The position numbers were made by a program, and so were the translations under genes. A model generated the notes under the pieces. That model ran no database searches. It was given only the letters and a program-made list of their open reading frames with translations, and was not told the DNA's origin. Below, in pieces: positions 12,416-52,329 of a stretch of DNA of 52,500 nt; positions within the stretch are counted from its first letter, which is position 1, and every line of letters begins with the position of its first letter. Source of the DNA: Paratrimastix pyriformis (Eukaryota; Preaxostyla; Paratrimastigidae). The stretch is taken from assembly GCA_027972325.1 (NCBI GenBank), contig JAPMOS010000202.1, positions 1 to 52,500 of the forward strand, written 5' to 3'.

Positions 12416-14118
12416 ATGGGTTTTCTCACCACACTCGGGAGGCCTCTTCATTGGCGTGAGATTGAGCCACAGGTGGCCAGATTGAAGCAGGAGGCCGCAG
12501 ATCAATTTGTGCGGTTGTATAACCTCTATGCAGCTGAAGCGAAGGAGCAGCTGCTTTTTGGGGATGAGGTCTGTCATCTGGCTGTGGTCTGGGTCATCGT
12601 TTTGCCCGACTCGGTGCGGTAGTGTGAATACATGTTGGTCGAATTCAACGAGTCCGGCGAGGTTTCGCTCTGCCTGGACGCCTACGAAATTCTTGAAAAG
12701 TCTCCTTTTTTTGTGCCCCTATTTCGGTCCTCATTCGACGCCTTTTCTCCAGACTCCATGCCGATCCGTCGACCTCCATCGCGGACTGGTCTCCCGAGTA
12801 TGCCCGTTACATGCTTGAAGGGAGCCCCTCCACACCCTACGGCAGTTTGGCCGATGTCATTCTTTTCGAGCGAAACATGCGACTCCGGCGCGAGCAATTG
12901 CGTGCTCACCTGGGGCCAGGTCGACACCTGGTCTCGCTGGCGGTCTATCCACGCCTCGGCAGGCCGCCACACCCGCTCTGTCGCAGTCCGGTCACGCTGG
13001 AAGTTCCACAACCACCTGGAACTCCCATTCCGGACGAAAGTTGGAATGTGGCGGCTCTTACCCCGGCCCAGCGGGCACTGGCCCAGGCCAACCCGGCCTC
13101 GCGGAGTTATTTTGCTTCGGATGATCTGATCTACCCCCATCCACGATTTGGGTCTGTGTTGATCAAATCACCCACCACCACCCCACAGCGTGCGAAACGA
13201 AGAAAAATTACATTTTTGAATTTCTCCCGCCCCCGGCGATATCACCCCAGGGCTCTCACCCGCAACATCCGGCTGCGACGCGGACGCAAGGTGGCGGTCA
13301 ACACACCGCTGTATATGGACACCAACACCAACCCGTCCGCCATCCTGCAGGAGGAGCGGGAATTACCCGGGGGTCAGTCCCTCCCTCCCCCCTCCTCCTC
13401 CCTCCTCCTCCCTCCCTCTTCCTCCCTCCTCCTCCTCCTCCCTCCTCCTCTCCTCCTCCTCCCTCTCCACTCCTCCTCCCTCCTCCTCCTTCCACCCCTT
13501 CCTCCCTCCTTCTCCCTCCCCCCCCCCCCCCCTCCTCTCTCCTCCCCCCCCCACCGCCATGCCTGTCCTCCTTCTCCACTGCCCGGTGACACCCGACGTT
13601 GCGCACATCCGCGTTACCACCCGGTGATACCCTCCTTCCCCTCCCCCTTCCTCCCCCTTCCTCCCTTCTCCTCCCATCCTCACCCCATCACCCCCCCCCC
13701 CCCCCCCCCACCATCCCGATGGACGCCCAGATCTTCGGTATGGGCTGCTGTTCCATTCCACATGTCTCTTTCTGTAATATCCATATCACACCACACACTG
13801 ATGACATCCCCATCCCCCTCACCACCACCACCACCACCACCACCACCACCACCACGCAGTCCTTCCGGGCACATCCCGATGGACGCCCAGATCTTCGGCA
13901 TGGGCTGCTGTGGGCTGCAGTGCACCCTGCAGTGCCAACCTGGAGGAGGCCCGGTTCCTCTACGACCAGCTCATCGTCCTGGCCGCGCCCTGGTCCGTCT
14001 CCCCCCCACACACACACACACACTGCTATGCGCTCCCTCTCTCTCTCTCTCTCTCTCTCTCATATTCCGAAAACCGAGCCACCGGGGCCCGTAAAGGGAA
14101 CACGAGAAAGACCGAAAT

Positions 14119-14149
<31 letters not shown>

Positions 14150-14636
14150 CACCACCACACCCCTCATCCTCATCCTCATCCTCACATCATCAGCCCCCCC
14201 CCCCCCCCCCCATCACCCATCACCCCCTTGATCACCGTCCCGCCCCCACCGCCCCCTCACCGCTCCCGCGTGAGTCCCCCCCCCCCACTCCCCCCCCCCC
14301 CCCCTTCCCTCTCTTCCTCTCTTCTCTCCCTTCACCTCCTTCCCTTCCTGCTCCAGTTATCATCAATCATCATCATCCAGTCATCATCACCCCCCCCCCC
14401 CCCCCCCCCCCCCCATCCCCTCAGCTTGCCCTGACGGCCGCCTCGCCATACTTCCGCGGCTGCCTGGCGGACACCGACTGCCGCTTCAACACCATCGCCC
14501 AGTCGGTCGATGACCGCACACCCGCTGAAGAGGCGGTCCGTATCTGTGTGCCATTGTCATCATCCAATCATCATCCAGTCGTCGTCATCGTCAGCAGCAT
14601 CATCATCCAATATTTTCATCCAATCATCATCGTCCA

Positions 14637-14673
<37 letters not shown>

Positions 14674-14704
14674 TCATATCATCATCATCATCATCACCAC
14701 CACC

Positions 14705-14780
<76 letters not shown>

Positions 14781-17700
14781 ACACCCACTGTCCCCCCCGC
14801 CAGGTCTTTCCCTCGTCCCGTTACGGCCCATCCCCCGTCTACGTGTCGGCCGAGGGCTCCCCCTTCAACGATGTCCAAGTTCCCATCGACCAAAACACCG
14901 TCGAGACCTGCCGCCGCGCCGGTCCGCCATCCGCATCATGATGACACACATGACCAAAACACAGCACATCACAGCACATCGCACCACTCTCAGTGCCCAT
15001 CGACCAAAGCACGAGACCTGCCGCCGTGCCGGTCCGCATACATCACATCACAGCACATTTGCACATAGCCTTCTGCTGTTTGACACGCACACACGCACAC
15101 ACAGGCATCGACGAACCCCTCACGCGGTACATCAGACACTCACACACCTTTCTGCTGTGTGACACACCTGCACACACATGCAGGCATCGACGAGCCCCTC
15201 GCGCGGTATGTGGGCAAGCGTGATTACACCAGACACTCACGCACACACCGACACACACGCACACGCAGGCATCGACGAGCCCCTCGCGCGGTATGTGGGC
15301 AGCGTGCTGGCCCGGGACCCGCTGGTGATCTACGAGGGGCTGGTGAATCAGGACCCCGCCACTCACACCGCCCACTTCCAGGTCCGCCAGTAATGATGAT
15401 GATGATGAGGATGGTGAATGGTGATGATGGGTGATGATGATGAGGATGACTGGATGATGATGTTGATGTTGATGGGATGATGTTGATGTTGTTGATGTTG
15501 ATGATGTTGATGTTGATGATGTTGATGTTGATGTTGATGATACAGACCATCCTCAGTGCCAGCTGGACGACCGTTCCTCACCTCCTTCTTGATGTTGACG
15601 TTGATGTTGATGTTGATGTATGTTTGTTGATGATGTTGTTGGCCGCCACAGACCATCCTCGGGCGACCGTTCCTCACCTCCTTTCTTGATGTTGTGATGA
15701 TGTTGTTGGTGTTTATGTTTATGTTGGTGTTGGTGTTGGTCACAGACCATCCTCAGTGCCAGCTGGACGGCCGTTCCTCACCTCCTTCTTGGTGTTGGTG
15801 TTGGTGTTGATGTTGATGTTGATGATGTTGGTGTTGGTGGGGCCCCAGACCATCCTGAGTGCCAGCTGGACGACCGTTCCTCACCTACTTCTGATGTTGA
15901 TGCTGATGTTGATGCTGTTGCTGTTGCTGTTGATGATGGGGCCCCAGACCATCCTGAGTGCCAGCTGGACGACGGTCCGCATGAAGGTCCCTGCCCGTGC
16001 CGGCGACTCGTGGCGGGTCGAGTTCCGCCCCATGGAGATGCAGGTCCGTGATTTCCGGTTGTTGTTGATGCTGTTGATACGTCTGTTGTATTTTTTGAAT
16101 GCCATAAAATCGGGGGATGAATGAACTCGGGGGGCCGGCGACTCGTGGCGGGTCGAGTTCCGCCCCCATGGAGATGCAGGTCCGTGATTTCCGGTTGTCG
16201 TTTGTTGTTGATGCTGTTCTGGAGACGATGATACGTCTGTTGTATTTTTTGAATGCCATAAAATCCGTGCCGGAAAGCAAAGAGACACGTTGCGTATTGA
16301 ATTGGTGGACCCCCATTATAAATCAGCACCATCAGCTGACATGGACGAAAATCGGGATGAATGAACTCGGGGGGCCGGCGACTCGTGGCGGGTCGAGTTC
16401 CGCCCCCATGGAGATGCAGGTCCGTACCGGTTCATTCATCTGATTTTCGTCATTTTTTGTGACAAGATTTCGGCATTTCTGTCACAAGACGAGATTCTCT
16501 CGTCATTTTCGTGACAAGTTTTCGTCATTTTCGTGACAAGTTTTCGTCATTTTCGTCATTTTCTGCTTCAGCTTTTTCTTCATGTTCCGTTCAGACGGGC
16601 GTCCTTTTTTTCGGTCGCCCCACCCATAATATTTCCAACCCGACCCTCATCAAAAAGAGCCACCCAACTACGCCCTGGAACCCGAACCACCGCCTTGGCT
16701 GGATTCGATGTGGTATCGATTGTAATGTTTCTCGTCGAAGGAGGACCCAGCCTCATCCAAACATGCTTGCTGATATGCTCACGTGACTTCTTCCTTTTTT
16801 GGGGCCACTCTCCCTCCTCCTTCGACGCGGCCTTCGTGGCCATGGCGGTGGTGTCCTGCTGATATGCACGTGACTTCTTCCTTTGTGTGGGCACACACCG
16901 CGCCCCTCTCCCTCCTCCTTCGACGTCGTGGCCTTCGTGGCCATGGTGGTGTCCTGCTGATATGCTCACGTGACTTCTTCCTTCACATCCGTCCCTCTGC
17001 CTCCCCTCGGCTGACGGACTTTGAGAACGTATGGTGATGCTGCTGATAGAGACTCACGTTGTTCCTGCTACCCCTTTGTTGGCACCCCCTTCACACCCAC
17101 CCACCCACCCACCCAGCTGACGGACTTTGAGAACGTATGGTGGTGCTGCTGATATATCCTCACCTTCCTGCTCCCCTTTGTTGACACCCCCTTCACACCC
17201 ACACACCCCCACCCACCCAGCTGACGGACTTTGAGAATGCGGCCTTCGTGGCGATGGTGGTGCTGCTGAGCCGGGCCATCCTCTCGTCCCGGGTCAACTT
17301 CTGCATCCCCATGTCCCAGGTCCGCCACCCACAGCCACACAGATCGCACACAAACAGACACACACACACATGACACACATGATCTGCATCCCCATGTCCC
17401 AGGTCAGCCACCCACAGCCACATCCCCTGCCCATCTGCCCACCCCCACGTCAAAATACCACAGGAGAGCGCTTCACGCCCAAACAATGCTCTCCCACCCA
17501 CCTCCATCCTTCTCCTCCCCCGGCCAGACCCACATCAACCTCTTCTCGCATCACACCCAATGGGCTGATGATCTCCCTCGCTCACCCACCTCCTTCCTCG
17601 GGCAGACCCACATCGACCTATTCTCGCATCACACCCAATGGGCTGATCTCCCTCGCTCACCCACCTCCTTCCTCGGGCAGACCCACGTCCCCCAATTCTC

Positions 17701-19586
17701 GCATCACACCCAATGGGCCGGTCTCCTTGCTCACCCACCTCCTTCCTCGGGCAGACCCACGTCCCCCAATTCTCGCATCACACCCAATGGGCCGGTCTCC
17801 TTGCTCACCCCACCTCCATCCTTCTCCTCCCCGGGGCAGACCCACATCGACCTATTCTCGCACCACACCCAATGGGCTGATCCTCTTTTGCTCACTAACC
17901 TCCATCCTTCTCCTCCCCCGGGCAGACCCGCGTCAACCTATTCTCGCATCACACCCAATGGGCTGATGATCTCCCTCGCTCACCCACCTCACCTCCATCC
18001 TTCTCCTCCCCGGGCAGACCCACGTCCCCCTATTCTCGCACCACACCCAATGGGCCGGTCTCCTTGCTCACCCACCTCAGACCCACATCAACCTGCAGCG
18101 CGCCCAGGCCCGCGACGCCCTCCACACCCAGAAGCTGGTCTTCCGTCAGTACCGATGCAACTACCCCGACCGCAAGGCAGCCGCCGCGGCCGCCGTCCCG
18201 GTGCCCTGCTGCCACTCGGCCGTCGTGGACTTGACCTTGGATGAGATCTTCAACGGGGCGGTCCGTATGTATGCAGTGTTACGCTCTGCTGTGCTGTCTG
18301 TCTGTCTGGGTGTCTGTCTGTCTGGTCCGGTGCCCTGCTGCCACTCGGCTGTGGTCGATTTGACGTTCTGTCAGTCTGTGCGGCTGTCAGTATGGGTCTG
18401 TCTGTCTGGCCCGGTGCCCTGCTGCCACTCGGCTGTGGTCGATTTGACCTTGGATGAGATCTTCAACGGGGCGGTCCGTATGTGTGTTTGTTGTGCGGTC
18501 GAGCTGGCTGTGGCTGTGGCTGCGCTGTGGCTGCGGCTGTGGCTGCGGTCGATTTGCCCATCGATGAGATCTTCAATGGGCCCGTCCGTATCCTGAATTT
18601 GTTTGTGCTGTCTGTGTCGTGTGTCTTATTATTGTGTCTGTGTCGTGTGTCTTATTATTGTGTCTGTGTCGTGTGTCTGTCGTGTGTCTGTGTCGTGTGT
18701 CTGTGTCGTGTGTCTTATTATTGTGTCTGTGTCGTGTGTCTTATTATTGTGTCTGTGTCGTGTGTCTTATTATTGTGTCTGTGTCGTGTCTTATGATTGT
18801 GTCTGTGTCGTGTGTCTGTGTCGTGTGTCTTATTATTGTGTCTGTGTCGTGTGCCTTATTATTGTGTCTGTGTCGTGTGCCTTATTATTGTGTCTGTGTC
18901 GTGTGTCTGTGTCGTGTGTCTGTGTCGTGTGTCTGTGTCGTGTGTCTGTGTCGTGTGTCTTCTTATTGTGTCTGTCCGAATGACTCGGCTGTGTCTGTTT
19001 GGACTGTCGATGGCTGTGTCGTGTGTCTTATTATGAGTGATGACTCGGCTGTGTCTGATTGACCTTGAGATCTTCAACGGGGCGGTCCGGATGGCTGGCT
19101 GTCTCTGTGCTGTGCGGATGCTGGGATGTTTTTCAAATTCCCCATTCCCGCCCCTCCGTACCCCCCAGTCAGCAGTCAGCGTTCTCATTTTCCCCTCCCG
19201 TCGCCACCCCACCGCCCCTTGCAGCCGGCCACCAACAGCCCCGGCCTGGTCTCCCTCGTCCGCCGATACATCGCCTCGCTGAGCCTCGAGCCCCCAGTTG
19301 CCGCGGTCCGTCCCTTCCAGGGTCATCATCATCCAGTCGTCGCCGTCACCACCACCACCATCCAGTCATCAGCGTCAGCATCATCATCGATCATCATCAT
19401 CACCCAGTCACCATCAGCATCATCCAATCCAGTCATCATCCAATCATCATCCAATCATCATCCAATCATCATCATCCAATCATCATCATCCAAGCATCAT
19501 CCGATCATCATCACCACCATCACCCACCACCACCACCATCACCCACCACTACCACCACCACCACCACCACCACCACCACCACCACC

Positions 19587-19620
<34 letters not shown>

Positions 19621-20744
19621 TCCCCCCACACACACACACAGCACATCGAGCGGTACATCCAGTTCGTCAGCGACATGTCTCACACTCCCCTTCGTATCAC
19701 GCTCTTAATCGCATCCTCCCCGACAGCACATCGAGCGGTACATCCAGTTCGTCAGCGACAAGGCCGCATTTCACACATCCCATCTCACACCCCACGACAG
19801 ATAGCACATCGAACGGTACAGCCAGTTCATCAGATGTCTCACATTCACTCAATCTCATCCCCCCCCACAGCACATCGAGCGGTACATCCAGTTCGTCAGC
19901 GACAAGGCTGCGGGCCGCATCCCCACCACGGCCCAGTGGCTGCGCCAGTACGTCACCGGGCACCCCGCCTACCAGCATGACTCCTTGGTCTGGCAGTGTG
20001 TGTCATTATATGTGTGTGTTGTGTATGGTCTGTCAGTGTGTGTCAGTGTGTGTCAGTGTGTGTCAGTGTGTCAGTGTGTGTGTCAGTGGATGAGTGCTGC
20101 GTCAGTACGTTACCGGGCATCCACCAGCATGACTCCCTGGACTGTGTCTCTCTTGTCCTTGTGCCACCATCACAATCATCATCCAAGCTTCAACACCAAC
20201 ATCATCCAATCATCATCAGCATCATCAGCATCATCATCACCACCATCACCACCATCATCATCCATCATCATCCATCATCACCATCTCACTCCCCCCCCCC
20301 CCCCGCCCCCCCCAACATCACCCAACACCAGGTGTCGGCCCCGATCGTCTCGGACCTCCTCCGCACCATCGTCAGCCTGAGCGCCCCCGCCACCCCCACC
20401 CCCACCCCTCCACCACTCCCACCCCCACCAGCACCCCTGCCCCCACCCCCACCCCCACCACCCCCACCACCACCACGCCAACACCCACGCCAACACCCAC
20501 GGCCCTTCTCGAGGCCGCCCGGGGCCTTCTGGGTCCCTATCTGGACACGCTGGGCGTGACCCCGGCGGCGCCCAACCCGCACCCACACACTGGCCGGCTG
20601 GCCTCAATCAGCAAGTGGAAGGGGTGTGGCTGTCCCCCAACCACCTCCACCACGGCGGCCCCGGATGAGAAGCCCGCAGGCGGGGCGGCGGAAATTGCGG
20701 CGGCGAAGCCAACAACGGAGGCTGCTGTCGTGTCGTCCCACTGA
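12416..20744 (+). CDS. GCLC: Glutamate-cysteine ligase catalytic subunit (gamma-glutamylcysteine synthetase)
   Basis: Catalyses ATP-dependent joining of glutamate and cysteine, the first step of glutathione synthesis, in the cytosol. The N-terminus MGFLTTLGRPLHWREIE and GDE|CEYMLVEF match animal GCLC (MGLLSQGSPLSWEE, GDEVEYMLV). Further family blocks are RYMLEGSPSTPYG, HPRFGALTRNIRLRRG, MDAQIFGMGCC, EEARFLYDQL, SVDDRTPAEE, WRVEFRPMEMQ, LTDFENAAFVAMVVLLSRAI and a WLRQYVTGHPAYQHDSLV stretch. Exons: 12416-12568, 12623-12699, 12753-13151, 13251-13372, 13860-13992, 14425-14535, 14804-14921, 15269-15381, 15948-16043, 17221-17319, 18081-18260, 19225-19305, 19871-19987, 20332-20744. Phases agree at most junctions. 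Exceptions: exon 5 changes frame internally near 13915-13930, and the Thr/Pro linker of exon 14 needs a frame change. Roughly 735 aa against about 637 in humans, the excess lying mainly in exons 3 and 14. Introns 1-3 are 53-99 nt; all later ones are expanded. Confidence 0.9.
13706..13756 (+). repeat. Upstream echo of GCLC exon 5 edge
   Basis: ATCCCGATGGACGCCCAGAT and the following CTTCGGTATGGGCTGCTG repeat the start of exon 5 (true copy from about 13872), 155 bp upstream in intron 4. The copy ends where homology stops, at TTCCATTCC. Confidence 0.85.
14061..14105 (-). repeat. 45-bp repeat joined to a (CT)n tract, copy 1 of 4
   Basis: The inverse of the 45-bp unit seen at 38188, 39605 and 40024 (GTGGCTCGGTTTTC plus GGAATATGAG). 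As at the other sites, a (GA/CT)n tract begins directly at the ATATG end. Located in GCLC intron 5. Confidence 0.85.
14383..14412 (+). repeat. C-rich block in GCLC intron 5
   Basis: Part of an intron built of poly-C, (CT)n and (CATC)n tracts that directly precede the exon 6 acceptor (CCCCTCAG). Such C/T-rich tracts may double as polypyrimidine tracts. Confidence 0.6.
14640..14780 (+). repeat. (TCG)n(CAT)n(CAC)n(CAT)n microsatellite in GCLC intron 6
   Basis: Pure trinucleotide runs fill the space between exon 6 and exon 7. Confidence 0.95.
14989..15036 (+). repeat. Downstream echo of GCLC exon 7 3' edge
   Basis: GTGCCCATCGACCAAAGCAC and GAGACCTGCCGCCGTGCCGG|TCCGC repeat the last ~43 nt of exon 7 with its donor (true copy 14879-14925), 112 bp downstream, with a 3-nt deletion and a few changes. 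Confidence 0.9.
15100..15232 (+). repeat. Two upstream echoes of GCLC exon 8 5' edge
   Basis: CAGGCATCGACGAACCCCTC at about 15102 and CAGGCATCGACGAGCCCCTC at about 15179 repeat the acceptor and first ~30 nt of exon 8 (true copy at 15266). The nearer copy is almost identical and the farther one more diverged. (CA)n tracts separate them. Confidence 0.9.
15541..15880 (+). repeat. Four upstream echoes of GCLC exon 9 5' edge
   Basis: CAGACCATCCTCAGTGCCAG (exon start encoding TILSASWTT) recurs at about 15542, 15648, 15744 and 15848 before the true exon at 15948. Spacing is 96-106 bp, with (TGATGT)n or (TTGGTG)n between copies. The second copy has lost about 10 nt inside. Each keeps the CAG acceptor. 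Confidence 0.95.
16044..16432 (+). repeat. Two downstream echoes of GCLC exon 9 3' edge plus intron start
   Basis: GGCGACTCGTGGCGGGTCGA and the rest of the exon end (…ATGGAGATGCAG|GTCCGT), with about 80 nt of following intron (GATTTCCGGTTG, TGTATTTTTTGAATGCCATA), recur at about 16130 and 16372. The copies carry a one-base insertion in the CCCC run that would shift frame. They would offer competing donor sites. Confidence 0.9.
16440..16565 (+). repeat. TTTTCGTCATTTTCGTGACAAG minisatellite
   Basis: Five or so copies of a ~22-bp T-rich unit (CGTCATTTTCGTGACAAG core) inside GCLC intron 9. Confidence 0.85.
16690..17165 (+). repeat. Decayed upstream echoes of GCLC exon 10
   Basis: GGCCTTCGTGGCCATGG recurs at about 16832 and 16931, each followed by TGTCCTGCTGATATG and CACGTGACTTCTTCC. 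CTGACGGACTTTGAGAA, the exon start, recurs at about 17011 and 17117 before the true exon 10 at 17221. The copies closest to the exon keep its first 17 nt exactly. Confidence 0.85.
17524..18062 (+). repeat. Seven upstream echoes of GCLC exon 11 acceptor region
   Basis: A 73-90 bp unit, (G)CAGACCCACATCAACCT followed by ATTCTCGCATCACACCC and AATGGGC, occurs seven times before the true exon 11 acceptor at 18081 (CAG|ACCCACATCAACCTGCAG). Only the first ~15 nt are exon-derived; the rest is common to the echoes. Confidence 0.85.
18326..19092 (+). repeat. Downstream echoes of GCLC exon 11 3' edge
   Basis: GTGCCCTGCTGCCACTCGGC and the following exon end with GGGGCG|GTCCGT recur at about 18329 (partial), 18411 (full), 18544 (end only) and 19066 (end only). 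The full copy at 18411-18486 would splice in the same phase as the true donor at 18261. Confidence 0.9.
18603..18966 (+). repeat. ~24-bp minisatellite (GTGTCTTATTATTGTGTCTGTGTC)-type in intron 11
   Basis: Alternating TGTCTTATTATTG and TGTCTGTGTCG modules, about 15-20 units with variable order. No coding role is supported. Confidence 0.9.
19641..19845 (+). repeat. Three upstream echoes of GCLC exon 13 5' edge
   Basis: CAGCACATCGAGCGGTACAT plus CCAGTTCGTCAGCGACA recur at about 19639, 19726 and 19804 (the last diverged) before the true exon at 19871. A preceding (CAT/CAC)n tract fills 19325-19620. Confidence 0.92.
20098..20150 (+). repeat. Downstream echo of GCLC exon 13 3' edge
   Basis: CTGCGTCAGTACGTTACCGG then GCATCCACCAGCATGACTCC repeat the last ~50 nt of exon 13 and its donor region, about 150 bp downstream, with several substitutions and a small deletion. 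Confidence 0.85.
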
Positions 20745-20904
20745 ACGCCACTTTTTGTGTTTTTCGTTTTTGACTGGACACGTGCATCTTTTCAATACGA
20801 TTTTGCACGGGCATCCTTTCAATACGATTTTGGCAGGGAGTTGAACAGAATTGCGCTGAGGGACGTGACGTTCAAACAGTCACCCACACACAGACACAGC
20901 ACCC

Positions 20905-21715
20905 CGGCGGCACCCAATCGGCATCCACGGCTGGCCTCGATCAGCAAGTGGAAGGGGTGCGGCTGTCCCCCAACCACTTCCACCACGGCGGCCCCGGATG
21001 AGAAGCCCGCAGGCGGGGCGGCCGAAATTGCGGCGGCGAAGCCAACAACGGAGGCTGCCGTCGTGTCCCACTGAACGCCTTACAGGATGCTCTGAGGAGG
21101 AAGGTGACGTTCGAACAGTCACGCACACACACAGGCACAGACGCGGCGCCCAACCCGCACCCACACACGGGGGCCGGCTGGCCTCGATCAGCAAGTGGAA
21201 GGGGTGCGGCTGCCCACCAGCCACTTCCACCACGGTGGCCCCCCGGATGAGAAGCCCGCAGGCGGGGCAGTGGAGGTTGCGGCGAAACAGCAACAAGCAC
21301 CGCCAACAGAGGCCGTCGTGTCCCACTGAACGCCTTCTCCATACGAATCGTCTTGATGTTGCGGGAGGGATGGACAGAATGCTGTGGGGCTGTTCTCTCA
21401 CACAGAGAGAAATATGCTGGGTATTTGCGAGGGCGCAGAGGCGACAAGTTCAACACACAAGTTCAACGCGCCTTCGCGCCTTCACACGCAGCACACACAG
21501 GCACACACCATCACACACCCCAGCGGCACCCAACCCACACCCCCACAAGGGGGCAGGCTGGCTGTGATCAGCAAGTGGATAGAGTGCCCCCCCCCCCCCC
21601 CCCCCATCCACCACGGCAGATAGCCTGCAGGCGGGGCAGCAGAAGTTAAGTTGCCGCAGCGAAACAGCAGTAATCATCCCCAACCGAAGCTGTCGCGTCA
21701 CCACTGACGCCTCCC
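20905..21715 (+). repeat. Three extra copies of the GCLC terminal exon 3' end after the stop
   Basis: The segment encoding ISKWKGCGCPPTTSTT and the Ala-rich tail with its stop (true copy about 20587-20750) is repeated at about 20905-21080, 21145-21335 and 21530-21712. The first two are nearly identical to the true copy; the last is eroded and has a poly-C run. Linkers carry ACACACAGGCACAG. They may lie in the 3' UTR or give alternative last exons. Confidence 0.9.
21400..21480 (-). mobile_element. LINE 3'-end fragment
   Basis: GAGAGAAATATGCTGGGTAT then TTGCGAGGGCGCAGAGGCGACAAGTTCAA (plus strand) match the LINE terminus at 30.5 kb. It is truncated after the CGCGCCTTCGCGCC block and sits inside the third copy of the GCLC 3' exon. 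Confidence 0.7.
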
Positions 21716-24160: not shown

Positions 24161-25980
24161 GATGATGACGCAATGTGTGTGTGTGCTGTCTGCCTCGCGC
24201 TTCCCTCTTCTCTTCTTGCACCCGCCCCGCCCCATGGCTCTTCCCCCCCATACCGTCCCTCCCCCCCTCCCCCCCATACCGTCCCTCCTGCCCCAGTATT
24301 ACCCACCCGATCCAAGCACAGCCCCATGGCTCTTCCCCCCCCCCCCCCCCCATACCGTCCCTCCTGCCCCCACAGTATTACCCACCCGAACCAAGCACAG
24401 CCCCAGCCACTGCCACGGCCACGGCCACGGCCACTGCCCCAGTCCCCGCCCCAGCAGCAGCAGCCACCATTCCGAGGCGGCGCAGATTTTTCAGGACCGC
24501 TGCCCCGTCCCTGGCCCCGGCCCCGGCTCCACCAGCTGCGAGGGCCCCCAATCAGGGACCTCGCAGATTTTCCAGAACCGCCGCCCCGGCCCCGGCCCCG
24601 GCCCTGGCCTCGGCTCCACCAGCTGCGACGGCCCCCAATCAGGGACCTCGCAGATATTTCAGAACCGCCGCCCCTGCCCCTGCCCCACCAGCCCTCGTCC
24701 CGGCCCCAGCAGCTCCTATTCCCAGAGATTTCAGGACAGCCGTCCCTTCCCCTGCCCCTGTCCCTGCCCCTCCCGCCCCAGTCCCTGCCCCAGCAGCTCC
24801 TATTCCCAGAGATTTCAGGACAGCCGTCCCTGCCCCTGCCCCACCAGCCCGAGTCCCGGCTCCAGCAGCTCCTATTCCCAGAGATTTCAGAACCGCCGTC
24901 CCTGCCCCTGCCCCTGTCCCTGCCCCTCTTGCATCAGTCCCTGCCCCGGCGGCCCCCATTCCCAAAGATTTCAGGACCGCCGCCCCTGCCCCTGCCCCTC
25001 CCGCCCCAGTCCCGGCCCCGGCGGCCCCCAATCAGAGACCTCGCCGATACTTCCGGACCGCTGCCACAGCCCCTGCCCCTGCCCCGCCAATCATCGACAC
25101 CGGACGGTTCGCTACCACAGCCCCTGCCCCTGCCCCGCCAGCCGGCTCCGCCCCAGCACCAGCAATCATCGACACCAGACGGCACAGACGGTTCGCTGCC
25201 GCTGCCGCTGCCCCGACCTCAGCAATCATCGGGCCGACGCCGCCACACACCACCAGACACCGCAATCACAGACGGTACGGGAATGCCGCTGTCAGTGCCC
25301 CCCCTGCCCCTTCAGCCGCTGCCACTGCCCCTCCAGCCCCAGCAGCTGTGGTCGTGACCACGCTGGCCGGACTCCCCACCGTCCCCCCTGCCCCGCCAGC
25401 CCCTCCAGCTGGCTACGCCCCGGCAGCTGTGGCCGTGACCACGCTGGCCGCGCCCAAGCCCCACAGACCATCCACCGTCCCCCTGCCCCGCCAGTCCCAG
25501 CAACCGGCTCCGCCCCAGCAGCTGTGGCTGCGACCCTGCTGGCCATGCCCAAGCCCACCGTCCCAGCACCAGCACCAGCCCCAGCCCCAGCACCAGCCCC
25601 AGCAGCCACTGTCCCCGCCGTGCCCATCCCCAGACAGCCCACCGGGCCCCTGACCGCCGACCCTGCCCCGCCAGCCCCAGCCTCAGCACCGGCAGGCCAT
25701 TCATCAGCCCCGCCAGCCCCAGCTTATCCATCAGCTCATCCAGCCCCAGCCCCGGCCCATTCATCAGCCCCGCCAGGCCACGCTCATCCACCAGGCCCGC
25801 CAGCCCACGCCCCGCCAGCTCCAGTCTCAACGACCCCCGCTCCCATCCTCCTCCGTGCCCATCCACCAGCCCTCGTCCTTCTCCGGGCGCCTGCCCGTCC
25901 GCCCCCAGTCTCCACAACCCCAGCACCCATCCGTCGCCGTGCCCGGCCCGTGCCCGGCCCGTGCCCAGCAACCCAGTCTT
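22626..25980 (+). CDS. Unrecognised multi-exon gene with Pro/Ala-rich C-terminal region
   Basis: A first globular segment (22.63-22.89 kb) contains NPDFVCRINAPPTT and GVIPTSLETLVLVEIVD. An exon ending at 23147 contains DPSHLDRVFRDLIMR and GSGDFDRADAL. The next exon, 23624-23791 (56 codons, phase 0 at both ends), contains APVEECLARLKATAAEA and HCPIDLILGLGV. A further exon begins after the acceptor near 24378 (YYPPEPSTAP) and enters a long Pro/Ala region with repeated PRDFRTAVPAPAP-type units to about 25.98 kb. Introns between these are (CAT)n/(CAGCAT)n and (GGT)n microsatellites, with GTCTGG donors. The phase of the first intron does not close in my model. The Pro/Ala stretch is open in all three frames, so its coding frame and length are uncertain. 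Function unknown. Confidence 0.45.
22897..23025 (+). repeat. (CAT/CAC)n microsatellite, intronic
   Basis: ATC/ACC trinucleotide run with CAGCATCAT interruptions between two exons of the Pro/Ala gene. Confidence 0.9.
23155..23620 (+). repeat. Composite intronic satellite: (CATCAG)n, (CAT)n, (CCGGTCATCAT)n
   Basis: Three phases in order: a CATCAG hexamer run to about 23249, pure CAT to about 23300, then about 11 copies of the 11-mer CCGGTCATCAT to 23430, then CAATCATCAT variants. It fills the intron 23148-23623. Confidence 0.95.
23884..24165 (+). repeat. (GATGAT)n and (GGT)n microsatellite, intronic
   Basis: A GGT run of about 90 bp is flanked by GAT runs, in the intron before the Pro/Ala-rich exon. 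Confidence 0.95.
24278..24340 (+). repeat. Upstream echo of the Pro/Ala exon 5' edge
   Basis: CCATACCGTCCCTCCTGCCC, then CAG|TATTACCCACCCGATCCAAG, recur about 80 bp before the true acceptor near 24378. The same exon-edge pattern is seen in GCLC. Confidence 0.8.
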
Positions 25981-36410: not shown

Positions 36411-39400
36411 CCCACTTTGAGCGTATTATGCTGTGGGATGCAGTGAGAGCGTGAGAAGCTCCAAGTGACGCGATCTTCAGGGTGACAGACCGCGCTCGAT
36501 GAAGTCGGTCATGTTGGAGCGGACCTCCTCCCAGGGCATGTCGATCCGCACCACCGCCCCTGCATCCCTCCCCACACACACACACACACACACAAATGAT
36601 GGAGTGACCGACAAAAATCGCGCGCGACCACGTCCAATCCAAGCCCACCACAACTCACCCCAGCTGGGAAGGAAGCTAACGGGCTGGGAGTGAAGATCGA
36701 CGTCCCTCCCGAGCAAATCCACAGCATGTCTCTCTATCCGAGCAAATCCACTGTCTGAGCAAATCCACAGCATGTCTCACTGTCCGAGCAAATACACAGC
36801 ATGTCTCTCTCTAGAACTTGTAGTGTGTCCGAGCAAATCCACAGCATGTCTCTCTGTCCGAGCATATCCACAGCATGTCTCACTGTCCGAGCAAATACAC
36901 AGCATGTCTCTCTCTAGAACTTGTAGTGTGTCCGAGCAAATCCACAGCATGTCTCTCTCTGAAGAACGGACAGTCGTTGGCCCTGAACCGGACGCAGTGC
37001 AGCCGGGTGATGAGTGTGTAGAGCCGCTTCAATACGGGTTCCATCTGCCGGGCTGCGATGCAGAGAGGAGCGGGATGAGCGAGCGGAGGAACGGGGTGAG
37101 CGGGATGATGAACGGGATGATGATGAGCGGGATGATGAGCGGGATGATGAGTGGGATGATGAGTGGGATGATGAGCGGGATGATGAACGGGATGATGAGC
37201 GGGATGAGGGAGAGGGATGATGCGGGTTTCAGGAGAGGGGGAGGGAGAGGGAGATGGAGAGGGAGAGAGAGGAGGGAGAGGGAGAGGAGGGGTAGGGAGA
37301 GGAGGAGGAGAGAGGAGGAGAGGAGAGGAGAGGAGAGGAGGAGAGGAGGGAGGAGAGGAGAGGAGAGGAGAGGAGAGGAGAGAGGGAGGAGGAAAGGAGA
37401 GGAGGAGAGGGAGGAGAGGAGGGAGAGAGGGAGAGGAGGAGGAGGAGGGAGAGGAGGAGGAGAGGAGAGGAGGAGAGGAGAGAGGAGAGGAGAGGAGAGG
37501 AGAGGAGGAGGAGAGGAGAGGAGAGGAGAGGAGGAGGAAAGGAGAGGAGAGGGAGAGGGAGAGGAGAGGAGGGAGAGAGGGAGAGGAGAGGAGGGAGAGG
37601 AGGAGAGGAGGGAGAGGGAGAGGAGGGAGAGGAGGAGAGGAGGAGAGGAGGAGGGAGAGGAGGGAGAGAGGAGGGAGAGGAGGAGGAGGGAGAGGAGGAG
37701 AGGAGGGAGAGGAGGGAGAGGAGGGAGAGGAGGAGAGGAGGGAGAGGAGGAGAGGAGGAGAGGAGAGAGAGGAGAGGAGGGAGGAGGAGAGGAGAGGAGA
37801 GGAGAGGAGAGGAGAGGAGGGAGAGGGAGAGGGAGAGGGAGAGGGAGAGGAGAGGGAGAGGAGAGGAGAGGGAGAGGGAGAGGGAGAGGGAGAGGGAGAG
37901 GAGAGGGAGAGGGAGAGGGAGAGGGAGAGGGAGAGGGAGAGGGAGAGGAGAGGAGAGGAGAGGGAGAGGAGAGGAGAGGGAGAGGAGAGGGAGAGGAGAG
38001 GGAGAGGGAGGAGAGGGAGAGGAACCAACAAGAAACTTTGAAAAGGATTCACAGAAAAAGAAAGACCAAGAACGGCAGCGTCGAAATGACGCGTTCAAAA
38101 AAAGATAAATACCTATAGGGAGAGGGAGAGGGAGAGGGAGAGGGAGAGGAGGGAGAGGAGAGGAGGAGAGGGAGAGGGAGAGGGAGAGGGTCCCCTTACG
38201 GGCCCCGGTGGCTCGGTTTTCCGGAATATGAGAGGGAGAGGGAGAGGAGAGGAGAGGAGGAGAGGAGGAGAGGAGGAGAGAGGGAGAGGAGGGGGAGGGG
38301 GAGGGGAGGGGAGGGGAGGGGGAGGAGAGGGAGAGGGAGAGGGAGAGGGAGTGGGAGAGGGAGAGGAGGGAGAGGAGGGAGAGGAGGGAGAGGGGGAGGG
38401 GGAGATTCTTCCCCCGCAGTTATAGCCACTCTCAATTTTCCAATCTTCTTCCGTTGGGTTGGCATTTGATGCCTCCCAAGGATGTTCCGATTATTGATTC
38501 AAGCCAGTTTGTGGCCAATGAATCATGTTTGGAAATGATTGAACATTTGTTTGCGGATCCTTACGAGAATGCAAGATCTCCTCCGCCGCAATTTGCCAAA
38601 ATTGGCTTTGACGTTACTAATTCGATGCGGCATGCTCTTGTTATTGGTGCCACTCTTTTGAATCATGCTCGTCCGACACCTGAGTATATTGAATCATTCT
38701 TCACTGCTCGTTTGCCTCGTGGCCTGTGCACGACCCAAGATGGTTGTTATGGTGCTACTCGTGATGCTATTTTGGAACAGGGTGCCATTTTAGTGAATGC
38801 GATTGCTGTTCTCATTGCCCAATCAGCTGAACGTCAACTTGGAGGTGGTCCTGGTCCGGGGGCGCATGAAGACTCCACCACTGAGTCTGAGTGTGACCCG
38901 GATGCCACTGAGTCTGAATGTGACCCGGACGCCACTGAGTCTGAGGAGGAATGCATCATCAGCGGGTCCACTCCCGCACCTCCACCTCAATCGGCTCTGC
39001 TTCCTGCTTCAGCGCTGGGAGTGAAGAGAAAGATGAGCAATGTAATTCCGAGTCGCAAAGCACCACAACCACCGCCTGTGGAGGAGAAAGCGGCCTCTGT
39101 GCCGCTTTCGAGCCCCAAGTCGTCTCCACCCAGCCTCAAGGCACCGCCCCCTCCAGCCATGTCCAAAGCAGAGAAGAAGGAGGTGCAAAGAATGAGGAAG
39201 GCTGCTTTGCTATGACGCGAGGAGAAGTCGCTGCTCGGGAGGCCCGCGAGGCCCGTGAGGCAGTGGAAGCTCTGCCCTAAGCCGAAGCCCCAGAAGCCCG
39301 CCCCTGCACCGATCTCGCGTTTGGCTGGGTGGGGAATTGGTTGCTGAAGTACGGGTGTCGTCGGATTTATGTGTGGCGCACTTATAACCGGTGGGGTATG

Positions 39401-47028: not shown

Positions 47029-50000
47029 ATGCCGCAAAATCCACAGCCTCCCCAGAGCCCCCCTCCGGATCTTCCGAATGCCGCGCCCACAGAGACTGAT
47101 CCTCCTCCAGTCGACAGCAACAAAGAACTGATCAAGAAGATCCGGGCGGAGCGGAGAGCTAAACAGAAAGAGATCCGCGAGCAACAGAAGGAGCGCACTG
47201 GCCACCGACCTCCTTCAGCCATTCTCGCATCAGCCATTCCGTTGGGCAACTGCGCCATGTATGACCCTCAAGATCGACTCCTTTGCCGATGCGATGAGGA
47301 CAAGCTCCAGTGGTACCTCTCCCGCGATCTGGCCGACCTGGTCTCGGAAAACCCACGCGCCATCAAATTGCGATTTGCCCCCAAGGGCACAGGCCACTTT
47401 GGTGATCAGTTTTACATGGCAGTCCACGAGAATCAATGCGCGGTCTGCGGCAAGAAGGAAACCCTCACCAAACACCACGTCATCGCACGCGAGTATCGAA
47501 CTCATATGCCTGAATGGTCTGTTGACAATACCAGCGCACTTTTTGATTCCACCACTTTCAACATTGATCATCGATGATGCAAAAAAAAATAGGGTGAAGA
47601 GCCGGAGCAGCCATGACATTCTCCTGCTGTGTCCGGTGTGCCACGATCGATACGAGGACGCCGCGTACCACCTTCGGCTGACCCTTGCCCAGGAACTGGG
47701 CCTCAAGTACGACTCTGGGGGTCCGTCCGTCAGCCCACACGCATGGCTGGTGCCGGGGTGGTGGTGGATGGTGGCTGGTGCCGGAGCGACAACCACATTC
47801 AAGACGCCAGGCCTTCCTGCGTTTCCCACGTATTGCCGCCTCCACCATCACCCCGTCACCAGCCACCACCCATATTACCCCTCCCCCTTCCCCCCTCCCT
47901 TTCCTCCTCCTCCTCCTGCACCATCACCCCGGCACCAGCCACGGCACCAGCCACCATCACCAGCCACCCCGGCACCAGCCACCATCACCAGCCACACCCC
48001 GGCACCAGCCACCATCGCCATCACCACATCGGCACCAGCCACCATCACCACCAAATCCTGGCACCAGCCACCATCACACTCCGGCACCACCCACCCCACC
48101 ACCCCGGCACCAGCCACCATCACCAGCCACACCCCGGCACCAGCCACCACCATCCACCCACCACTTCCACCAACCAACCATCCATCCGCCTCATCAAACA
48201 ACAAACGTCCCATGAGCACATCAGCGCTATTCCCCCCCCCCCCCCACACACACACACACTTCTCCCTAACGAGCCTATCAAACGCCCTCCACAGGGGATT
48301 CCTTCGCCCACGGGTGCAGTGACATTCGTGCTGTCTCTTCTACCTCTCTGGTTTTTGTTTTATTTTCCCGTTACTTCGTTCCTTCTTTACACGACACACA
48401 CACACACACACACACTCTTCTACCTCTCTGGTTTTTGTTTTATTTTCCCGTTACTTCGTTCCTTCTTTACACGACACACACACACACACACACACGGTCC
48501 CATAATATTCAGCACTGCTCGATCAGCACCGTTTTTTTTTCCCCCACACGGGCGGTCCCATAATATTCTCTTTTTTTGGTTTTCGTGGTCCCATAACTTT
48601 CTCAGGTCAGCAATGTCCCCATGAGCACTGTCCAATCAGCACCGTTTTTTTCACACGATCCCCGTGGCATGGTTTTCTGTGAACCGTCTCATCAGCAATG
48701 TCCCAGCAGCCTGTCTCCACGGTCCGATCAGCACCATTTTTTCGCACGGTCCCATAATATTTTTTCCCCCCCCACGCTGTCCCATAATTTTCTCGGGTCA
48801 GCCCCGGCTGTATGAGGGCGACACGTTCCTGAATGGCCTCTCAGGTGCCCCGATCGTTCTCCACAGACGCGCACTGTGACTGGGCTTTTTGTGAACAGCG
48901 CCTGTAATCATCTTCCAACACTGTCCCGTGAACTGACCATTTTTTCACGTTCTATATCGGTCCCATCATTTTCTCGGGTCAGCCCCGGCTTTATGAGGGC
49001 GATGCGTTCCTACGTTCATTTGCAATGGCCTCTCATCATGAGCCCAAATAATCCGCCAGACTCGGGTTGAATGGTAGGTTGAATGGTATGGTTTTCGGTG
49101 AATACCCGTCTCAGCAGCACTGTCCCAGCACTCATCACACTGTCCCATGAGCACTGTCCATTCGCTACCATTTTTTCACGTGTCCCATAATTTTTTAATT
49201 TTTTTTTTTTTCGCGGGTCCCATAATTTTCTCGGGTCACTGCTGTCGTTATGAGGGCAACGCGTTCTCGTGTCATTTGCAATGGCCTCTCATCATTGATG
49301 GGTCAAACGGTTTGATGTTCAGATTTTGTGTTTTGTCATCCCATAATTTTCTCGGGTCTCCAATGGGAACGAAACACACACACACACACCCCGCGCAACG
49401 GTCCTCAGCCGGCGGCCACCCCCACCCCACCCGGGACTCGTGGGTCGCGAGTGGTATCCTGCGGGGCTTGGTCACGGCGCGGGTATCCTCTCGATGGCCA
49501 TGGACTTGGCGAGCTGTTTTTTTTTTTTTGACACGGGTGGGACCTCATGTTTGATCAAAACGCACTCAGAAAAGAGAAGGAGGAAATTGGATGGGGAAAA
49601 AAGAACATGAACGGAATCAGAAAAAACCCATCATACACCCGAAACCCCACACCCACACCCACCCCCCACACAAAGGCCTCAGCTTTTTTTTTTTTTTTCT
49701 GACGTCCCATAATTTTTCCCCCATGACGTCAGCGTCATTATTTTTTTGTTTTTTTTTCTTTTCCGCTGTCCCATATTTTTGTGGATTCCGCGATGTCTTT
49801 TTGAGAACGTCATCACCGGCACAGTTGCAAGCAAACTGCCGTTTGGACGCTACAGCGATGAGACATCGGGTCGGGTCCAGGAGCAATGCGGCATCTCCAA
49901 TCGTGATCGCCTGTCCATCATCTTCGTCCGAGCAAACACACGCACGCACACACATTTTCCCGTTACTTCGTTCCTTCTTTACACGACGCACGCACACACA

Positions 50001-51644
50001 CACACGTGACAGTGGGGCCGGTTTGTGGTGAACAAGGACGCCCAGCAGATCATCAGCGCTCGCATCCCATAACGGAGTCCCATACCTTTTTTTTTTTGAT
50101 GTCCCATAATGTTTTTTTGATGCCCCATAATGTTTTTTTTTTTTTTGATGTCCCCAGATTTTTCTCGGGTCGCCACTGCCTTTATTAAGAACGTCCTCTC
50201 GATGTGCGCTCGGTGTCAGGGCTTTTTGTGAACAGGCACGCCTTGGAATTTGTCCCATGAGCTGACCCGTTCCATCGTTTTTTTTTCGCTGTCCCATAAT
50301 TTTCTCGGGTCAGCCCCGGCTTTCTGAGGGCGCCGCAATATCGTCTCATCAGCAATCATGTCCCAACACTGTCCCACGAACTGACCATTTTTTCACGTCC
50401 CATCATTTTTTTTTTCGCTGTCCCATAATTTTCTCGGGTCAGCCCCGGCTTTATGAGGGCGATTTCCTGCGTCATTTGCAATGGCCTCTCATCATGAACC
50501 CAGACCATTCTCCAAGTTCGGCCGCTTGGGCCCGGAACTTGGCAAAATCACCCAACACGGTGCTGAGGCTGTCCACTTGTATCGAACAGAGGTCACGCAA
50601 TGAAGGGAAAGATCTCTCAGGAATGACGATGCAGCAAAGGGACCTGCTCCTTTCGGCGGAGAGCCTGGACACAACAAGGAGCAGAACGGTGATCGGCTCA
50701 TAACGGGGGGTGACAGCAACACGGACGATGATCGCCCTGACAACACGGAGTTCAGCCGCATCGCACACGTGACGGTGGGGCCGCGGTTTGTGGTGAACAA
50801 GGACGCCCTGCAAGATTCATCAGCGCTGGCGTCCCATGCCTTTGATCTTTTTTTTTTTTTGTCATCCCATAATTTTCTCGGGGCGCCACTGTGATGGGGG
50901 GATCTGGGACCAGCGAGATCATTTTTTTTTTGATGTCCCATAATTTTCTCGGGTTCCCACTGCCCTATATTAGGAGCACAGTCTCACAGCCTCTCCTCAT
51001 CCCTCCACACAGTGGGCCGGTTTGTGGTGGTGAACAAGGACGCCCAGCAGATCATTCAGTGCTTGCGTCCCAGAACATATTCTTTTTTTTGGCTGTCCCA
51101 TAATTTTCTCGGGTCTTCACTGCCTATATTCAGAACGTCCTCTCCTCCTCGCTCCCACACCGGGGCACACACACAGTGGGCCGATTTGTGGTGAACAAGG
51201 ACGCCCAGCAGACCATCAGTGCTTGCGTCCCAGAACACATTCTGTTTTTTGGCTGTCCCATACTGTTTTGTTTTTTTGGATGTCCCATAATTTTCTCGGG
51301 TCGTCACTGCCTATATTCAGAACGTCCTCTCCTCCTCGCTCCCACACCGGGGCACACACGTGACAGTGGGCCGGTTTGTGGTGGTGAACAAGGACGCCCA
51401 GCAGATCATTCAGTGCTTGCGTCCCATCCCATTTTTTTTTTTTTGGTCGTCCCATAATTTCTCGGGCACCAGTGTCTTTATTAAGAGCACGGTCCTCACA
51501 TCCTCTCCTCATCTCGCTTCCACGCACGCATCACACACGTGACAGTGGGCCGGTTTGTGGTGAACAAGGACGCCCAGCAGATCATCAGTGCTGCCTCGGC
51601 CCTGTCCCGCAAGCCCTGCTTCATCCCCCCGGAACGCCAGCAAA
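47029..51644 (+). CDS. EXD2-type HNH-domain protein (5' exons; continues beyond window)
   Basis: Exons 47029-47516, 47593-47720 and 51546-51644; split codons close (TG|G, then G|TG). The N-terminus is Pro-rich (MPQNPQPPQSPPPDLPN), followed by a basic helix (NKELIKKIRAERRAKQKEIR). Then comes a block matching the C-terminal half of human EXD2: MYDPQDRLLCRCDEDKLQWY, QCAVCGKKETLTKHHVIARE, SSHDILLLCPVCHDRYED. The paired CxxC motifs and HH/HD residues are those of a zinc-bound HNH fold. Exon 3 (GRFVVNKDAQQIISAASALS) fits the following helical region. The 3'-5' exonuclease domain of EXD2 is absent upstream, so this is a stand-alone HNH-type protein or the gene was split. Intron 2 is 3,825 nt and full of exon 3 echoes. 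Later exons lie outside the window. Confidence 0.75.
47900..48240 (+). repeat. (CACCCCGGCACCAGCCACCAT)-type minisatellite in EXD2-like intron 2
   Basis: About 12 units of GGCACCAGCCACCATCACC with variable linkers, followed by a poly-C run and (CA)n. Not coding: it lies inside intron 2. Confidence 0.9.
48295..48500 (+). repeat. Tandem duplication, ~78-bp unit
   Basis: TCTTCTACCTCTCTGG, then TTTTTGTTTTATTTTCCCG, TTACTTCGTTCCTTCTTTAC and (AC)n occurs twice (48337 and 48415). A partial copy (TTTTCCCGTTACTTCGTTCC) lies at 49954. Confidence 0.85.
48490..51545 (+). repeat. Echo array of EXD2-like exon 3 acceptor region
   Basis: Two interleaved motifs. First, CCCATAATTTTCTCGGGTC occurs about 20 times in intact or decayed form (48497 to 51449). 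Second, copies of the exon 3 edge, CAG|TGGGCCGGTTTGTGGTG then AACAAGGACGCCCAGCAGAT, start at about 50015, 50775, 51013, 51177 and 51367 before the true exon at 51546. Weaker relics (CTTTTTGTGAACAG, GGTTTTCTGTGAAC) lie at 48.67, 48.89, 49.09 and 50.22 kb. A third motif, CCCCGGCTTTATGAGGGCGA, recurs five times. Echoes nearest the true exon are closest to it in sequence. Confidence 0.9.
49517..49684 (+). repeat. Dispersed ~185-bp repeat, copy 2
   Basis: Shares ordered blocks with 3777-3966 (minus): TTTTTTTTTGACACGGGTGG, ACCTCATGTTTGATCAAA, GAACATGAACGGAATCAG, CCCATCATACACCC and a final GGCCTCAG. Located in EXD2-like intron 2. Confidence 0.7.
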
Positions 51645-51645
51645 G

Positions 51646-52085
51646 TCCGTCTGTGTGTGTCTGTGTTGTCTGTGTGTGTCTGCGTGTGTCTGTGTGTGTC
51701 TGTGTGTGTCTCTGTGTGTCTGTGTGTGTCTCTGTGTGTCTGTGTGTGTCTGTGTGTGTCTGTGTTGTCTGTGTTGTCTGTGTTGTCTCTCTGTGTGTCT
51801 GTGTGTGTCTGTGTGTGTCTGTGTGTGTCTCTGTGTGTCTGTGTGTGTCTCTGTGTGTCTCTGTGTGTCTGTGTGTGTCTGTGTGTGTCTGTGTGTCTGT
51901 GTGTGTCTGTGTGTGTCTGTGTGTGTCTGTGTGTGTCTGTGTTGTCTCTCTGTGTGTCTGTGTGTGTCTCTGTGTGTCTCTGTGTGTCTGTGTGTGTCTC
52001 TGTGTCTGTGTGTGTCTCTGTGTGTCTGTGTGTGTCTGTGTGTGTCTATGTGTGTCTGTGTTGTCTCTCTGTGTGTCTGTGTGTG
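51646..52085 (+). repeat. (TGTGTGTC)n / (TCTG)n microsatellite in EXD2-like intron 3
   Basis: TGTGTGTC octamers with TGTTGTC variants start within a few bases of the exon 3 donor GTCCGT. Confidence 0.95.
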
Positions 52086-52127
52086 GAGCAAAGGGACCGG
52101 ATTAATTGTCTGGATATCTGTTTATTT

Positions 52128-52285
52128 CAAGGACCGCAAGCCATGCTTCATCCCCCAGGCACGCCAGCAAAGTCCGTTCCAAGTGTCGTCTCTGTGTCTG
52201 TGTGTTGGAGTGGATTGCATGCAAGTACCGGCAAGCCCTGCTTCATCTCCTCAGGAACGCCAGCAAAGTCCGTGTGTGTTGTCTG
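52128..52285 (+). repeat. Two downstream echoes of EXD2-like exon 3 3' edge
   Basis: CGCAAGCCATGCTTCATCCC, then ACGCCAGCAAA|GTCCGT, at about 52135, and CGGCAAGCCCTGCTTCATCT, then AACGCCAGCAAA|GTCCGT, at about 52227, repeat the exon 3 end (51608-51650) with its donor. They mirror the upstream echoes of the same exon. Confidence 0.92.
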
Positions 52286-52329
52286 TGTTGTCTGTCTGTG
52301 TGTGTGTGGAGCAAAGGGACCGGATTTAT

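Follow-up and report, generated by a model that had tools for sequence, protein, structure and literature searches.

Most introns of one of the two glutamate-cysteine ligase catalytic subunit (GCLC) genes of Paratrimastix pyriformis appear to have been lengthened by tandem duplication that included exon edges, together with low-complexity growth, and the evidence given here supports this reading. The gene lies in the window, i.e. the whole 52.5 kb stretch of DNA that was analysed, which is contig C116 of a genome of 56 Mb in 495 contigs; the organism is termed free-living in the genome paper (PMC10703272). Total intron length is 6112 nt in this gene vs 1184 nt in the second GCLC gene, on contig C149, a roughly five-fold difference. 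The copies are direct and in tandem, the paralogue is compact with matching introns, the duplications arose after the two genes split, and no repeat pair joins exon to exon. We consider it likely that ordinary local tandem duplication recurred in once-short introns and was kept where the spliced frame survives. Together the two genes come close to a before-and-after pair, one compact and one with introns five times longer, in which the duplication steps are still legible, and they allow intron growth to be dated and dissected, which we believe is seldom possible.

A profile search of the genome found GCS family matches at two loci only, the C116 locus and C149, for which the annotated P. pyriformis proteins are P0002 and P0001, respectively. 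The C116 gene model was built by spliced alignment to human GCLC and then to the C149 protein, and spurious small exons produced by the aligner were taken out by hand.

12416..20743, + strand, GCLC, 14 coding exons in the model (Pfam GCS matches exon by exon, spliced alignment, annotated protein P0002)

The model has 14 exons and 13 introns, every one of which begins with GT and ends with AG (13/13). Both paralogues have 13 introns at matching positions, with the sixth uncertain; the donor of exon 6 is uncertain in both genes, so that the sixth pair of lengths below is approximate.

Introns 1 to 7, nt, C149/C116: 46/54, 46/53, 60/99, 51/486, 45/428, 39/268, 476/347
Introns 8 to 13, nt, C149/C116: 133/566, 37/1177, 45/761, 91/964, 42/565, 73/344

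Once a one-base correction is made to exon 4, C116 intron 4 becomes 487 nt and the total 6113 nt. In C149, 11 of the 13 introns are 37-91 nt and one is 133 nt; the remaining one, at 476 nt, is intron 7, which is shorter in C116 (347 nt, with copies). By the mask that we applied, the 6112 nt of C116 intron sequence comprise 2437 nt of low-complexity sequence (40%), 1779 nt of complex direct repeats and 1896 nt that are neither.

Motif searches and alignment together listed partial exon-edge copies in eight of the 10 C116 introns longer than 100 nt, with no convincing copy in introns 5 and 6, and none were found in the three short introns (54, 53 and 99 nt). At least one copy was listed for 11 of the 26 edges, i.e. 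the 5′ edges of exons 5, 8, 9, 10, 11 and 13 and the 3′ edges of exons 7, 9, 10, 11 and 13. An earlier note on this DNA had named all of these edges except the 3′ edge of exon 10, whose copy at 17383-17422 it missed, and alignment confirmed every edge that it named. Its observation that the three short introns lack copies was likewise borne out; its wording that almost every expanded intron carries them fits eight introns in ten, and its statement that each copy keeps a usable splice site fits 24 of the 28 copies listed. AG is present in 17 of the 19 copies of 5′ edges and GT in seven of the nine copies of 3′ edges, the exceptions being the exon 5 copy, one exon 10 5′ copy, the exon 13 3′ copy and one exon 11 3′ copy.

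13712..13751, + strand, copy of 13872-13911 upstream of exon 5 (40 nt, 97% identical), which starts 12 bases into the exon and lacks the acceptor
14992..15058, + strand, copy of the exon 7 3′ edge, donor GTCCGC at 15032; from the alignment listing
15088..15216, + strand, two copies of the exon 8 5′ edge, exon starts at 15105 and 15184; from the alignment listing
15493..15893, + strand, four copies of the exon 9 5′ edge, exon starts at 15546, 15652, 15746 and 15849
16134..16459, + strand, two copies of the exon 9 3′ edge, donors at 16180 and 16420
16827..17166, + strand, region with copies of the 5′ part of exon 10, two of the edge and two decayed and interior
17011 (without AG, CGG for CAG) and 17117 (with AG), + strand, the exon 10 5′ edge copies
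16827-16862 and 16930-16960, + strand, the decayed interior copies of exon 10, which reach no junction and are left out of the 28
17383..17422, + strand, copy of the exon 10 3′ edge, donor GTCAGC at 17403; 39/40 identical
17497..18078, + strand, exon 11 5′ edge, tandem array of units of about 74-92 nt with seven short copies
17528, 17606, 17681, 17755, 17840, 17926 and 18018, + strand, exon starts in the exon 11 array
18327..19093, + strand, four copies of the exon 11 3′ edge, donors at 18474, 18584 and 19085
18327-18367, + strand, the exon 11 3′ copy that ends before the donor
19638..19835, + strand, three copies of the exon 13 5′ edge, exon starts at 19642, 19727 and 19805
20093..20144, + strand, copy of the exon 13 3′ edge with GA in place of the donor GT
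20584..21715, + strand, tandem copies of the end of the last exon with the stop codon, not a splice junction

The weakest link of this catalogue is the set of exon 11 5′ copies, which have just 9-14 exon bases in common with exon 11. A match to the 5′ edge of exon 6 (14170-14270, 74/90) was judged to be low-complexity and dropped, and weak matches at exons 4 and 5 were likewise left out of the copy list. Intron 11 also contains a minisatellite of TGTCTGTGTCGTG units at 18609-18960, with a higher-order period of 115. At the end of the gene CACTGA, which closes the last exon and includes the stop codon, occurs four times in tandem (20739, 21069, 21324 and 21702), as would result from the same duplication process acting outside splice junctions.

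A fixed test, in which 36 nt of exon edge had to match with a local score of at least 18, detected copies of C116 GCLC edges on the predicted side (upstream for 5′ edges, downstream for 3′ edges) in 8/26 cases and on the wrong side in 0/24; with a score of at least 15 the counts were 10/26 and 0/24. Controls with the reverse complement gave 0/26, and the same test detected copies at 0/26 edges of the C149 gene. Three of the listed edges score below the threshold of 18, namely the exon 10 5′ edge at 17, the exon 13 3′ edge at 15 and the exon 11 5′ edge at 14. A low-complexity filter dropped no edge of GCLC or of VPS18, a gene on contig C441 that also has copies, and left the predicted-side and wrong-side counts for GCLC unchanged; correction of exon 4, one base too long, and of the end of exon 14, 3 bases too short, did not alter the fixed-test counts either, while the local repeat counts, the alignment listing and the rotations given here were made with one or the other of these limits uncorrected. 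When the query was moved 20 nt inward, 8/26 GCLC edges and 3/42 VPS18 edges still had copies at a score of at least 15. A random “other intron” control was set aside because it could sample the query's own intron; at a score of 18 this unused control gave 1/26 for GCLC and 3/460 for other genes, with the own intron among those that could be drawn.

Several patterns are consistent with a local tandem origin. Local direct repeats outnumber inverted ones by 167 to 3 in the window and by 131 to 5 in 190 kb sampled from C441, matched blocks are 25-140 nt long, and 80% of pairs lie 85-579 nt apart. The copies lie head to tail, close together and in direct orientation, and the duplicated segment crosses the exon–intron boundary, since 24 of the 28 copies consist of exon edge plus AG or GT, although seven of these contribute just the 9-14 exon bases given above. 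At sites that differ between the paralogues the copies carry the C116 base in 230 cases, the C149 base in 11 and neither in 18, a comparison over 30 copies or pieces in which copies within one array are not independent; because they match C116 rather than C149, the duplications in the C116 line postdate the split of the paralogues. The first part of the exon 11 array (314 nt) matched its own intron and nothing else in the genome, which, for the one piece searched, argues against a dispersed element.

The process that we favour would run as follows. Small tandem duplications would arise repeatedly in a duplication-prone gene; if ancestral introns were mostly about 40-90 nt, as we infer, a unit of like size would usually take in an exon edge, just as an intron of 37-91 nt combined with units of such size implies that an edge is often included. 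Duplications sparing each complete exon would be retained, as the outermost donor and acceptor would still give the same protein, while those that would double coding sequence in the mRNA would be lost by selection, and low-complexity tracts would expand in parallel. Repeat pairs with both members in exons numbered 0/53, where the mean under rotation was 7.5 and 5.5% of rotations were as low, as expected from selection on coding sequence. The outermost splice sites are presumably the ones used, probably by way of exon definition and clean-up of mis-spliced RNA.

Splice-site scores of the copies fall within the range of true sites on a matrix taken from self-trained predictions, and use of the 24 copied AG or GT sites would in 20 cases cause a frameshift or a stop and in four insert 21-71 in-frame codons. 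Within an array, the true acceptor comes after all of its copies and the true donor before all of its copies, an order that would fit recognition across exons and not across the shortest intron. Protein P0002, compared by eye, has the outermost acceptors at exons 8, 9 and 11, an extra piece before exon 10, and a continuation beyond the exon 11 donor, and weakly supports use of the outermost sites. Judged from the gene sequence, the spliceosome would tolerate these decoys. We would go further only tentatively: it is possible that the introns were lengthened stepwise by edge-including duplications while the spliceosome skips up to seven nearby acceptors, at exon 11, whose scores equal or exceed that of the true one, for the outermost site. 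If so, it pairs sites across exons although ancestral introns were short, and the arrays would offer, in an anaerobic metamonad whose U1 snRNA is re-coded, a natural test of exon vs intron definition. Should the outermost sites be used, each array would test how a spliceosome chooses among near-identical adjacent sites.

How general the copies are was assessed on about 260 kb of the 56 Mb. VPS18 has copies at 9/42 edges on the predicted side and 0/40 on the wrong side by the fixed test, a figure that is not an unbiased rate because this gene had been selected for having the most copies in an initial scan. Its exons came from alignment to homologues, as a consensus of five alignments chosen by eye. 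The homology model (C441:423156-437443) has 21 introns, all but one of which measure 190-1353 nt. Among a further 28 predicted genes, copies occurred at 6/335 edges on the predicted side and 3/292 on the wrong side, a count without VPS18, the C149 stretch, 84 low-complexity edges and 13 edges of exons shorter than 36 nt; before removal of low-complexity edges, with the GCLC genes out and VPS18 in, the counts were 27/460 and 9/404. The gene finder for these other genes was trained on 16 long open reading frames and the GCLC exons and still calls low-complexity repeats as exons, which makes the counts soft; a first, self-trained gene finder had been discarded after running into junk exons. Five kinesin genes, selected solely on the basis of their Pfam exons, had copies at 0/36 edges, although the exon ends here are ends of Pfam matches and inexact as splice sites, so that the zeros weigh less against short copies like those of VPS18. 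Within this sample the copies are a property of certain genes or regions and no rule, and GCLC is not alone. The earlier note's proposal that introns in this genome grow by junction-spanning duplication and microsatellite expansion is therefore upheld for most introns of the C116 GCLC gene, while as a genome-wide rule it is not supported by the 28 genes and the kinesin edges, with VPS18 as the exception. Tandem arrays are denser in the 52.5 kb window, with 18, than in the 190 kb C441 block, with 19. Additional non-microsatellite arrays in the window lie at 24261-25814, 36751-36958, 47942-48495 and 50923-52299, and two of these four show unit-to-unit matches of 98-100%. In the course of the searches two DEAD-helicase exon pairs, at C395:11821-12424 and C485:776926-777529, were seen to have identical scores, spacing and frame lengths, reflecting either a recent duplication or a redundant contig.

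An alternative explanation is that the C116 GCLC is a pseudogene and the C149 gene the functional one, with duplications accumulating in the former without selection or any need for splicing. Consistent with this, exon 5 (13860-13996) is short by 2 nt relative to C149 near 13936, in a conserved region, and P0002 by eye is out of frame in exon 5 and leaves GCLC after exon 11. We nevertheless regard it as unlikely. Among 201 columns conserved in 118 homologues, 151 are kept in C116, with the protein read through the exon 5 frameshift with an X, vs 147 in C149 (7 gaps), and departures from consensus confined to one gene number 13 in C116 and 18 in C149; retention of the 151 columns implies that the C116 gene was constrained until recently. 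All 13 model introns retain their terminal dinucleotides, and VPS18, for which no paralogue was sought, bears the same kind of copies. The genome data are Nanopore, PacBio and Illumina, with Illumina used for polishing, according to the genome paper (PMC10703272), and indel errors are plausible in such an assembly. The 2 nt gap is possibly a read or assembly error, a recent mutation or the sign of a dying gene.

Duplication could instead be aimed at exon–intron junctions, e.g. through transcription- or splicing-linked breaks, with introns growing junction-specifically, which we think quite unlikely. The placement rule of the earlier note, 5′ edges copied upstream and 3′ edges downstream, describes the data well (8/26 vs 0/24) but is no evidence of a special mode. 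A tandem copy of an acceptor and exon start is possible only upstream of the complete exon, and one of an exon end and donor only downstream, by the geometry of tandem duplication; the incomplete copy of a tandem junction duplication thus always falls on the predicted side, and the rule cannot decide whether junctions are preferred. When repeats were rotated relative to the GCLC exons, 7/26 edges were repeat-covered vs 6.5 expected, with 47% of rotations reaching 7, and other gene limits or edge lengths gave 7 vs 5.9, 5.4 and 4.9 (35%, 28% and 21% of rotations). Non-microsatellite tandem arrays (period at least 25) were not enriched at junctions, spanning them in 2/18 cases vs 3.0 expected in the window and 3/19 vs 4.3 in the C441 block. 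Repeat families touching an exon numbered 9/14 vs 5.1 expected in GCLC (p 0.03), one GCLC family having two overlapping blocks in a single exon as an artefact of block merging, and 6/11 vs 5.0 in VPS18 (p 0.37). Edges covered under rotation were 6 vs 3.0 for VPS18 (5% of rotations) and 24 vs 14.4 for the other predicted genes pooled, with the VPS18 region included (about 1%). The tests of junction preference conflict, with p from about 0.01 to 0.5, and some lean towards preference; the GCLC families, the pooled genes and the recurrence of the pattern in VPS18 on a different contig speak for targeting, while edge coverage in GCLC near expectation, the VPS18 families, the arrays, the tandem copies at a stop codon and the absence of copies in the kinesin genes speak against it. 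Such counts are also biased upward, because exon-edge copies stay recognisable longer where selection holds one member still.

Two further possibilities fare worse. The 24 copies with AG or GT and scores in the true-site range, four of which would add codons in frame, might suggest that the protein is diversified through alternative or mutually exclusive exons. This is very improbable, since no listed copy is a whole exon with both sites and kept frame, all being partial, several contain gaps, and 20 of the 24 sites break the frame or bring a stop. Assembly artefacts, for which one could cite a long-read assembly with repeats and a short contig (52.5 kb), are scarcely credible given pair identities of 81-100% (the search kept pairs of at least 80%), gaps and differing flanks among the copies, the same pattern on C441, and GCS matches confined to the C116 locus and C149.

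Recurrent local tandem duplication, the reading that we prefer, has parallels in known systems. Intronic minisatellite and microsatellite expansion is a known process, and the GCLC exon 11 array is itself a minisatellite in a gene with 40% low-complexity intron sequence; the GCLC units differ in that parts of exons and splice sites are included in them. Hellsten 2011 and Gao and Lynch 2009 are reportedly cited in connection with the Rogers model of AGGT-segment duplication. As summarised in a review (PMC3443670), that model has an AGGT-bearing exon segment duplicated, and no mode of intron gain other than tandem duplication has been demonstrated in vivo. In both the Rogers model and GCLC extra splice sites come from internal tandem duplication, but GCLC has no new intron inside an exon and its copies adjoin existing junctions. 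The closest case known to us is the potato RdRp gene, in which a tandem duplication across an intron–exon boundary created a new intron (PMC4974935), leaving the upstream exon-edge copy within intron sequence; the remark of the earlier note that it knew of no described mode of this kind is in this respect not supported. Potato gained an intron, whereas GCLC has the same 13 introns as its paralogue, at matching positions, most of them longer and through many events. Introners (PMC9860276) likewise involve repeated intron sequence but are dispersed in many genes, while the single GCLC unit searched, of 314 nt, is confined to GCLC. Junction-crossing tandem duplication is thus already described, and the outcome here is that most existing introns are longer with their number unchanged. 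In openly licensed literature no paper was found on intron lengthening without change in number, or on P. pyriformis splice sites.

The donors involved belong to the unusual GTCTGT/GTCCGT class, so that this genome bears on joint change of the donor consensus and U1. Eight U1 snRNA genes were found, with E values of 2e-10 to 4e-13 and all under the Rfam gathering score, and all eight have the 5′ end ATACAGACCTTG; they are L010-L017, on contigs C212, C231, C349, C441, C482, C495, C388 and C24. The common form of the U1 5′ end is ATACTTACCTG, and a 13-base pattern of that form, ATACTTACCTGGC, is nowhere matched exactly in the genome. AGGTCTGT is the reverse complement of ACAGACCU, and the altered 5′ end is complementary to AG/GTCTGT, matching the GTCTGT/GTCCGT donors; most donors of the genome are GTCTG or GTCCG. 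With no donor preference in the alignment, C149 introns begin with GTC in 11/13 cases, GTT in 2/13 and GTA in none; in the same run for C116 GTC was found in 11/14, the other three (GTA, GTG and GTG) being placements not kept in the model. Genome-wide, CAGGTCYGT occurs 2514 times vs 723 for the reversed pattern, and CAGGTRAGT is under-represented, with 296 vs 590. From sequence it looks as if U1 and the donor consensus may have changed together. Giardia U1 retains ACUUAC (PMC3510501) and Streblomastix introns have A, U and G at +3 to +5 (PMC1501061), and among the organisms compared the change is seen in P. pyriformis only. Four U6 snRNA genes (L018-L021) retain the usual ATACAGAGA box (ACAGAGA), and it seems that only the U1 side of donor recognition may have changed.
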